A stretch of 5,058 bases of DNA from Rhodanobacteraceae bacterium. Lineage in GTDB: Bacteria > Pseudomonadota > Gammaproteobacteria > Xanthomonadales > SZUA-5. Below the pieces are notes generated by a model. That model was not told the origin of the DNA. It ran no database searches and saw only the letters and a list, made by a program, of their open reading frames with translations. Location: contig QIMA01000422.1 of the NCBI GenBank assembly GCA_003233535.1, positions 1-5,058 on the forward strand, in the 5' to 3' direction. Shown piece after piece: positions 648 to 1,729 of this stretch. A program made the position numbers and the translations under genes. Numbering within the stretch: the first letter of the stretch is position 1; every line of letters begins with the position of its first letter.

Positions 648-1718
648 TCAATCAACGGGATAAGGATAACTCAAGGTGGTGACAAACAGGCTCGCATCTG
701 CGCTAGAAGACTCGGTTTCGAGTTTAGCGCGCGGGCCATAGAGTGCGTGCAGGCGTGAGCGGATGTTGTTGAGCGCCATCTTATTGCCTTCGCTGGCGTT
801 GCTGTATTGAGCCTCGGGCAGAGGATTGCTTATCTCGACATTGACCGTCTCATCAGCGTACCAGAGGCGCAGCCGAATCAGCCCGCCTTGGGGGAGCGGC
901 TGGATGCCGTGATAAATCGCATTTTCGAGCAGCGGTTGCAGGGTTAATAGAGGGATCCGCACCGACGCGGGCGTGGCCTCGATCTGCCAATCCATCTCTA
1001 GCCGATCGCCAAGGCGCAGCCCTTCGATGCGCACGTAGCGTTTACACAAGGCTATCTCTTCGGTAAGTCGTACCTGGTTGCCGACGTCGTTGAGGCTGGC
1101 GCGGAACAGCGCCGCAAGGTCCTCAACTACCGACTCGGCCGTTTCGGGATCTATGCTTATCAGGCTGGCGATGATGTTCATGCTGTTGAATAAGAAGTGC
1201 GGGCGAATGCGCGACTGCAGCGCCTGAATTCGCGCCTGCAGCTCTGAGCGTTCCTGCTCCCGCAGGCGCTGCTGTACGTAGAAATAGCGCAGCACCATAC
1301 CCGCAATAATGCCGGCGACGGCAAGCTGGCGAGCGATGGGCTGCCAATCATTGGCCGCGCTCAGCTCGCTACCGGCAACGACTCGCTCGCTGATAATACC
1401 CACCGTCAAGGTCGCAGCCATTACTATGCCAAAGGCGAGCGCGGCCCCACCCAGCAGGCTCAGCCGCGCGAGCAATGGCCGCGCGAAACACAACAAGCCA
1501 GCACTGGTAAGCGCCACCCACTGCACAAACAGTGACAGCAGCGCGAGCCTGGCCCAGGAAATGTCAGCGCCTGCGAGCAACAACACCAGCACCAGCAGTT
1601 GTGCGACTAGAATGACAATCGTCAGGGCCGTTACATTGCACAGCTCTGGGATCTGAAAATGATCCGAGCGGCCTTCGAGCCTTGGCGATCTGTCTGAGTT
1701 GGAGCCCGAGTCGCTCAG
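648..1718 (-). CDS. algZ: AlgZ/FimS-type membrane sensor of the LytS-like histidine kinase family
   Basis: This is the membrane sensor partner of AlgR. Read from CTG at 1718 it has 356 residues, close to the roughly 358 of P. aeruginosa AlgZ/FimS. Order: a polar N-terminus; the family motif FQIPELC (21-27); four hydrophobic segments near 31-50, 58-77, 86-109 and 128-147; a charged helical linker (148-172); the His-kinase box RIRPHFLFNSMN with H174; and an N-box LQPLLENAIYHGIQP with N266. The glycine-rich DxGxG ATP-lid motif of typical kinases is not visible after SNPLPEAQ. AlgZ homologues are known to lack some standard kinase motifs, so this need not mean loss of function. A GTG at 1592 gives a 314-residue frame but would remove FQIPELC and most of the first membrane segment, so it is rejected. 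Upstream the frame is open to a TGA at 1730-1728 and contains no ATG, GTG or TTG; CTG at 1718 is the best initiator. Confidence 0.9.
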   Translation of the reverse strand: MSDSGSNSDRSPRLEGRSDHFQIPELCNVTALTIVILVAQLLVLVLLLAGADISWARLALLSLFVQWVALTSAGLLCFARPLLARLSLLGGAALAFGIVMAATLTVGIISERVVAGSELSAANDWQPIARQLAVAGIIAGMVLRYFYVQQRLREQERSELQARIQALQSRIRPHFLFNSMNIIASLISIDPETAESVVEDLAALFRASLNDVGNQVRLTEEIALCKRYVRIEGLRLGDRLEMDWQIEATPASVRIPLLTLQPLLENAIYHGIQPLPQGGLIRLRLWYADETVNVEISNPLPEAQYSNASEGNKMALNNIRSRLHALYGPRAKLETESSSADASLFVTTLSYPYPVD

Positions 1719-1725
1719 TCGCTCA
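1710..1725 (-). repeat. Perfect 8-bp tandem duplication at the algZ start
   Basis: On the minus strand TGAGCGAC occurs twice back to back (1725-1718 and 1717-1710). The base before the first copy is G, giving an out-of-frame micro-ORF GTG AGC GAC TGA (1726-1715). The base before the second copy is the C that ends the first copy, giving CTG AGC GAC TCG in the algZ frame. Removing one copy would put GTG AGC GAC TCG in the algZ frame. The repeat and frames are seen directly; duplication as the origin of the CTG start is inference. Confidence 0.9.
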
Positions 1726-1729
1726 CCTC
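1723..1729 (-). promoter_or_regulatory. Strong Shine-Dalgarno sequence that selects the algZ CTG start
   Basis: GAGGTGA on the minus strand is complementary over seven bases to the usual 3' end of 16S rRNA (UCACCUC). From the GAGG core to the CTG at 1718 the spacing is 7 bases, which is near optimal. No ATG, GTG or TTG in the algZ frame lies near it. This is the main reason for choosing the CTG at 1718 as the start. Confidence 0.65.

Follow-up and report, generated by a model that had tools for sequence, protein, structure and literature searches.

Repeat-number phase variation that shifts the frame of the start codon is a property of the lic1-type CAAT arrays of Haemophilus, and rare bacterial genes use the non-canonical start codons CUG and AUU. 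Initiation complexes formed on CUG are described as less stable than AUG, GUG, and UUG complexes, and this lower stability has been offered as a reason for the rarity of CUG as a bacterial start (PMC11497404). Short direct repeats before start codons have been described in the Beggiatoaceae, where the unit is TAACTGA (PMC4679880). In the Pseudomonas algZ/algR operon, argH is reported to lie divergently (PMC8787478), and the same arrangement is found in the locus considered here.

The stretch of DNA analyzed (5,058 bases, referred to as the window) carries an algZ homolog with a perfect octamer repeat at its 5′ end. The reading favored here, to which we give close to an even chance, is that this repeat strips algZ of its ordinary start codon, that AlgZ is likely translated, probably at a low level, from a CTG at 1718–1716, and that this represents a fixed down-tuning of the sensor rather than a reversible switch.

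Gene Content and Promoter Region

The minus strand of the window encodes algR and algZ, and the plus strand genes that we take to be argH, lysA, and dapF, together with a small lipoprotein gene that is presumably lptM-like (Table 1). AlgZ is the name given by some sources to homologs of the window protein, which matches the PF06580 His_kinase domain (E 5e-23; 81.5 bits, cut-off 25.2) and is encoded in an operon with a LytTR regulator, with argH divergent, so that both the domain and the genetic context are those of AlgZ/FimS.

Table 1. Positions of genes and sequence elements in the window
Feature	Position	Strand	Remarks
algR, LytTR response regulator	1..609	-	Runs off the contig
algZ, LytS-type (His_kinase, PF06580) sensor kinase	648..1718	-	356 codons from CTG, plus stop
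Octamer copy 2, TGAGCGAC	1710..1717	-	The likely algZ frame begins one base before
Mini-ORF, GTG AGC GAC TGA	1715..1726	-	3 codons; TGA overlaps CTG as CTGA
CTG	1716..1718	-	Putative; only plausible in-frame algZ start
Octamer copy 1, TGAGCGAC	1718..1725	-	From the sequence, 16-mer search and Tandem Repeats Finder
Shine-Dalgarno-like GAGGTGA	1723..1729	-	4 nt before CTG; contains the displaced GTG
TGTTATACT	1753..1761	+	Extended -10-like for argH; reverse strand AGTATAACA -10-like for algZ
argH	1790..3178	+	Divergent to algZ

Upstream of argH and algZ, TGTTATACT and its reverse strand AGTATAACA would constitute a shared bidirectional -10 element serving both genes, and the algZ transcript may start near 1747, from AGTATAACA. 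The sequence AAAGTATAACAATGCC is the same in the window and in the nearest genome (G448), and in Escherichia coli symmetric -10 elements of this shared type are described as frequent (PMC12825309). A scan of positions 1600–1900 for sigma-70 promoters with two hexamers gave no match. A 'KYNN' upstream peptide that is conserved in some relatives was considered and rejected; in the window a TAA precedes it, no start codon intervenes before the GTG is reached, and the -10 region of argH and algZ is the better reading of its DNA.

Two further observations concern the 5′ end of algR. At 597–624 there is a 14-bp imperfect tandem repeat, two near-copies of ATGCAAAAACTGA (Tandem Repeats Finder score 49), in which the first ATG is out of the algR frame; this repeat was not seen in G448, and for matches of score 49 the frequency per 5058 bases is 0.46 in relatives and 0.06 in simulations. 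At 646–650, the algZ stop overlaps an in-frame upstream ATG of algR as TGATG, so that AlgR could be extended N-terminally by 13 residues, in coupling with algZ.

A Tandem Octamer at the 5′ End of algZ

The minus strand from 1729 to 1710 reads GAGGTGAGCGACTGAGCGAC, in which TGAGCGAC occurs twice, perfectly and adjacently, at 1725–1710. The first-pass annotation had placed a perfect 8-bp duplication exactly at the algZ start, and the sequence, a 16-mer search, and Tandem Repeats Finder (score 34) agree on this; the 16-mer comprising both octamers is found at a single place in the window with up to 2 mismatches allowed (0.01 expected).

As a repeat the octamer pair is unremarkable, because exact tandem duplications with a period of 7–20 arise by chance at about 0.5 per 5 kb; what stands out is its position and the absence of an ordinary start codon. 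In relatives' DNA, 67 such duplications were counted in 636,971 bases (0.53 per 5058 bases; 83 stretches, consisting of 80 relatives' loci and 3 stretches of G448), and Markov simulations gave 0.49 per simulated window, the actual window having one. Exact duplications of period 8 occur at 0.064 per 5058 bases in relatives and 0.10 in the simulations, and Tandem Repeats Finder matches scoring at least 34 at 1.5 and 0.5, respectively. Such frequencies would suit an account in which the octamers are a chance similarity that arose without a duplication event, the CTG start being old in the lineage. However, the repeat coincides with the algZ start and GTG AGC is common to the window and G448, and this account is considered improbable.

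Counting of repeat copies across relatives, which the first-pass annotation had proposed, revealed the octamer duplication in none of the 102 loci tested (from 103 given, not deduplicated), the interval covered being the 120 nt upstream of the N-terminal motif. Other exact tandem repeats were present in this interval in four of them. In locus L083, the algZ start region has the tandem heptamers GTGAGTG GTGAGTG TTGAGTG TTG, about 59–35 nt before its FVVPDLC anchor and with several start codons inside.

Translation Start of algZ

The stop-to-stop frame of algZ opens at 1727, after a TGA at 1730–1728, and reads GGT GAG CGA CTG AGC GAC TCG before continuing to the conserved motif FQIPELC. Between this TGA and FQIPELC there is no in-frame ATG, GTG, or TTG, as had been noted from the sequence, and algZ of the window thus has no ordinary start codon between its upstream stop and the N-terminal motif. 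A canonical in-frame codon, a candidate rather than a proven start, was found after the last stop and within 45 codons upstream of the motif in all 91 distinct relatives anchored on that motif (of the 110 loci supplied, 93 were distinct, and anchoring failed for L080 and L100). The only one-base neighbors of ATG in the algZ stretch before the motif are the CTG and one AGG, and since the kinase frame is intact while lacking ATG, GTG, and TTG, AlgZ is likely translated from the CTG.

The Shine-Dalgarno-like GAGGTGA, located at good spacing (4 nt) from the CTG in agreement with the first-pass annotation, has a predicted anti-Shine-Dalgarno pairing energy of -6.9 kcal/mol, compared with -1.5 for the displaced GTG, so that the gene has what is expected of a CTG-initiated one, namely a properly spaced Shine-Dalgarno sequence and no better codon. 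The algZ GTG of G448 is also weak in this respect (-2.4 kcal/mol), as are the candidates of other relatives. As previously described, copy 1 of the octamer yields GTG AGC GAC followed by TGA, and copy 2 the in-frame CTG AGC GAC. For five assumed 5′ ends, a predicted CUGAG-CGA-CUCGG hairpin leaves the CTG only 0–9% unpaired, and the GAGGTGA is predicted to be only 28–41% unpaired. This pairing, like the poor performance of CUG as a bacterial initiator, speaks against the CTG reading, although the fold of the leader RNA is no stronger than that of shuffled sequences (z -0.36 and 0.39).

Two other candidate features were rejected. Inspection by eye showed no slippery heptamer for a programmed -1 frameshift that would lead from GTG AGC GAC to the algZ frame, and for a leader ORF running onto the displaced GTG (ATG CCC ACT ... 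AGG TGA, encoding MPTFLTTLR) no Shine-Dalgarno sequence was seen. G448 has a different leader ORF of 13 codons, and by eye both leader ORFs end on GTGA, for which the chance is 1 in 3 each. Elsewhere in the window (3338–3341), the small lipoprotein gene and lysA share the bases TTGA, the stop of the former overlapping the TTG start of the latter, an overlap of the same kind as CTGA at algZ.

The database entry for the window protein (P0001, 314 aa) begins at GTG 1592, and it could be supposed that AlgZ is made from this internal codon and that the frame upstream is dead, the more so as seven others among the 23 closest proteins also have their called start within the conserved segment. However, the 22 codons FQIPELC...AQLL upstream of GTG 1592 are conserved as protein, with 0.55 synonymous and 0.07 nonsynonymous differences per site relative to G448, and synonymous differences exceed nonsynonymous ones in 19 of 19 chosen comparisons, which are not all independent (the values for L035 and L132 are identical). 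Judged by this pattern, the segment is under protein-level constraint, so that translation should begin upstream of FQIPELC, at least through most of the history of the lineage, the measure reflecting that long history and not the time since the duplication. An internal start would also remove the conserved FxIPELC and, apparently, part of the first hydrophobic helix, and is regarded as very unlikely. Gene callers restricted to ATG, GTG, and TTG shorten proteins that begin at other codons, and P0001 would lose 42 residues in this way, including the conserved motif.

Called Starts among Related AlgZ Proteins

A total of 120 listed homologs, of 7,994 found, were analyzed. In the four proteins that lie nearest to the window in a tree (P0005, P0007, P0008, and P0009; support 93/88, under the starred level of the tool), the start is called upstream of the motif, and on the basis of these sequences the loss of the ordinary start is therefore specific to the window's lineage or to the contig alone.

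Among the 23 closest AlgZ proteins, window included, 8 have a called start within the conserved N-terminal segment, versus 3 of the 97 others listed (Fisher p 7e-5, or 3e-4 without the window), the cut at 23 having been chosen post hoc where identities of at least about 70% give way to values of at most 67%. Those called internally include the environmental proteins P0015, P0016, P0018, P0019, P0021, P0022, and P0023; P0004, P0011, and P0014, also among the 23, have called starts upstream of the KYNN block. On the tree the internal-call label requires four changes, at least three when judged by well-supported branches, and a second search, with P0022, also set the group apart (at least 71% versus at most 66% identity among the 120 matches listed). 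This excess may be due to hidden starts or to weak start signals that mislead gene callers, and provides a testable lead on hidden start codons. A broader proposal would be that algZ has repeatedly lost its ordinary start in a Pseudomonadales clade and begins at codons invisible to gene callers, the octamer duplication in the window recycling a GTG as the Shine-Dalgarno sequence of a new CTG to give a low, fixed sensor dose; this is rather improbable.

Origin of the Contig

The source assembly is fragmented (606 contigs) and 81% complete, and the contig (window 1–5058, G000:C203) has probably been mis-binned, because its ArgH is only 33–35% identical to those of seven of the eight other genomes in the bin's family (the eighth has no match) and 82% identical to that of G448, which is syntenic with the window from algR as far as its fetched stretch extends, into the first part of lysA. 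G448, which is outside the nine genomes of the bin's family, also shares 83% identity in AlgR and 74% in AlgZ, whereas the best AlgZ-like protein in the bin's family reaches 44% and a separate AlgZ-like gene of the bin itself, on C157, 39%. Searches for a second sequence of the species found none: P0001 has two member sequences and one contig, and the next protein is 71–75% identical. Matches were obtained in 9 of 398 genomes of the bin's order at E 1e-70 (the bin included) and in 2 of 390 of G448's order at E 1e-125; within G448's genus only G448 itself matched, a DNA search of the bin's genus matched one of three genomes, the bin itself, and 39 pattern stretches from viral contigs included no relative of the window.

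The state of the assembly and the probable mis-binning, as well as the called starts before the motif in P0005, P0007, P0008, and P0009 and the canonical codon in every anchored relative, would fit the two-copy sequence being either an assembly error or the variant of a minority strain, with the algZ of the species starting ordinarily and the present 5′ end being frame-broken. However, an exact 8-bp tandem insertion would be unusual as an assembly error, and there is no internal stop in algZ from the CTG or in algR, argH, the lptM-like gene, lysA, or dapF (the algR and dapF frames are cut by the contig ends), so that the contig is not generally error-ridden. A variant or error is somewhat unlikely but has to be taken seriously; the contig sequence is compatible both with it and with a fixed CTG start.

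Proposed Origin and Working of the CTG Start

In G448, algZ starts GTG AGC AAA, which aligns with the displaced GTG AGC of the window; the alignment is gapped just around the start, which makes the duplication of a GTG start an inference. It is proposed that the ancestral algZ start was GTG AGC, as in G448, and that duplication of the octamer pushed this GTG out of frame. The displaced GTG would have become part of the GAGGTGA Shine-Dalgarno sequence now standing before a start, and a 3-codon mini-ORF would have been left with its stop overlapping the new CTG. The 30S subunits would bind GAGGTGA and initiate at the CTG or, alternatively, ribosomes finishing the mini-ORF would restart there, the outcome being a sensor permanently down-tuned relative to AlgR.

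The first-pass annotation had instead viewed the repeat as a slippage-prone switch, in which loss or gain of a unit toggles GTG and CTG starts and tunes the dose of AlgZ. Loss of one unit would indeed bring the GTG of copy 1 into frame with algZ, as had been claimed for a one-copy allele, but such an allele would lack the Shine-Dalgarno sequence of the CTG and have a poor one in its place (-1.5 kcal/mol), because the bases before the GTG are the same at any repeat number. This would not forbid use of the GTG, that of G448 having only -2.4, but the alleles would differ in Shine-Dalgarno sequence as well as in codon, and hence would not exchange two similar starts. The octamer is present in only two units, short of the several expected of a phase-variable simple sequence repeat, none of the 102 loci tested carries the duplication, and starts are called upstream of the motif in all four of the tree-nearest proteins; a switch is therefore highly improbable. 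What can be retained is a plausible move of the start from GTG to CTG, given the CTG as sole plausible start and the GTG AGC at the matching place in G448, and not the switching.

If the contig is right, the locus represents a clean natural case in which a short duplication moved a gene from GTG to CTG and supplied its Shine-Dalgarno sequence. Among the papers listed on algZ/fimS start codons, tandem duplication at starts, or CUG starts, none was seen to report this case.

Comparison with Known Systems

Like the Pseudomonas AlgZ/FimS-AlgR (LytS/LytTR) operon, the window encodes a PF06580 kinase with a LytTR regulator downstream, but its algZ frame has no ATG, GTG, or TTG start. With the rare genes that use non-canonical starts it shares a Shine-Dalgarno sequence and a near-cognate codon as the sole candidate, the CTG of the window being a putative start. 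As in the lic1-type arrays of Haemophilus, a repeat adjoins start codons in different frames; however, the window has two octamers only, and no variation in copy number was seen. The TAACTGA repeats described in the Beggiatoaceae are likewise short (7–8 bp) direct repeats at start codons, often in two copies (PMC4679880), but the unit in the window is different and the octamer pair is found there at one place.
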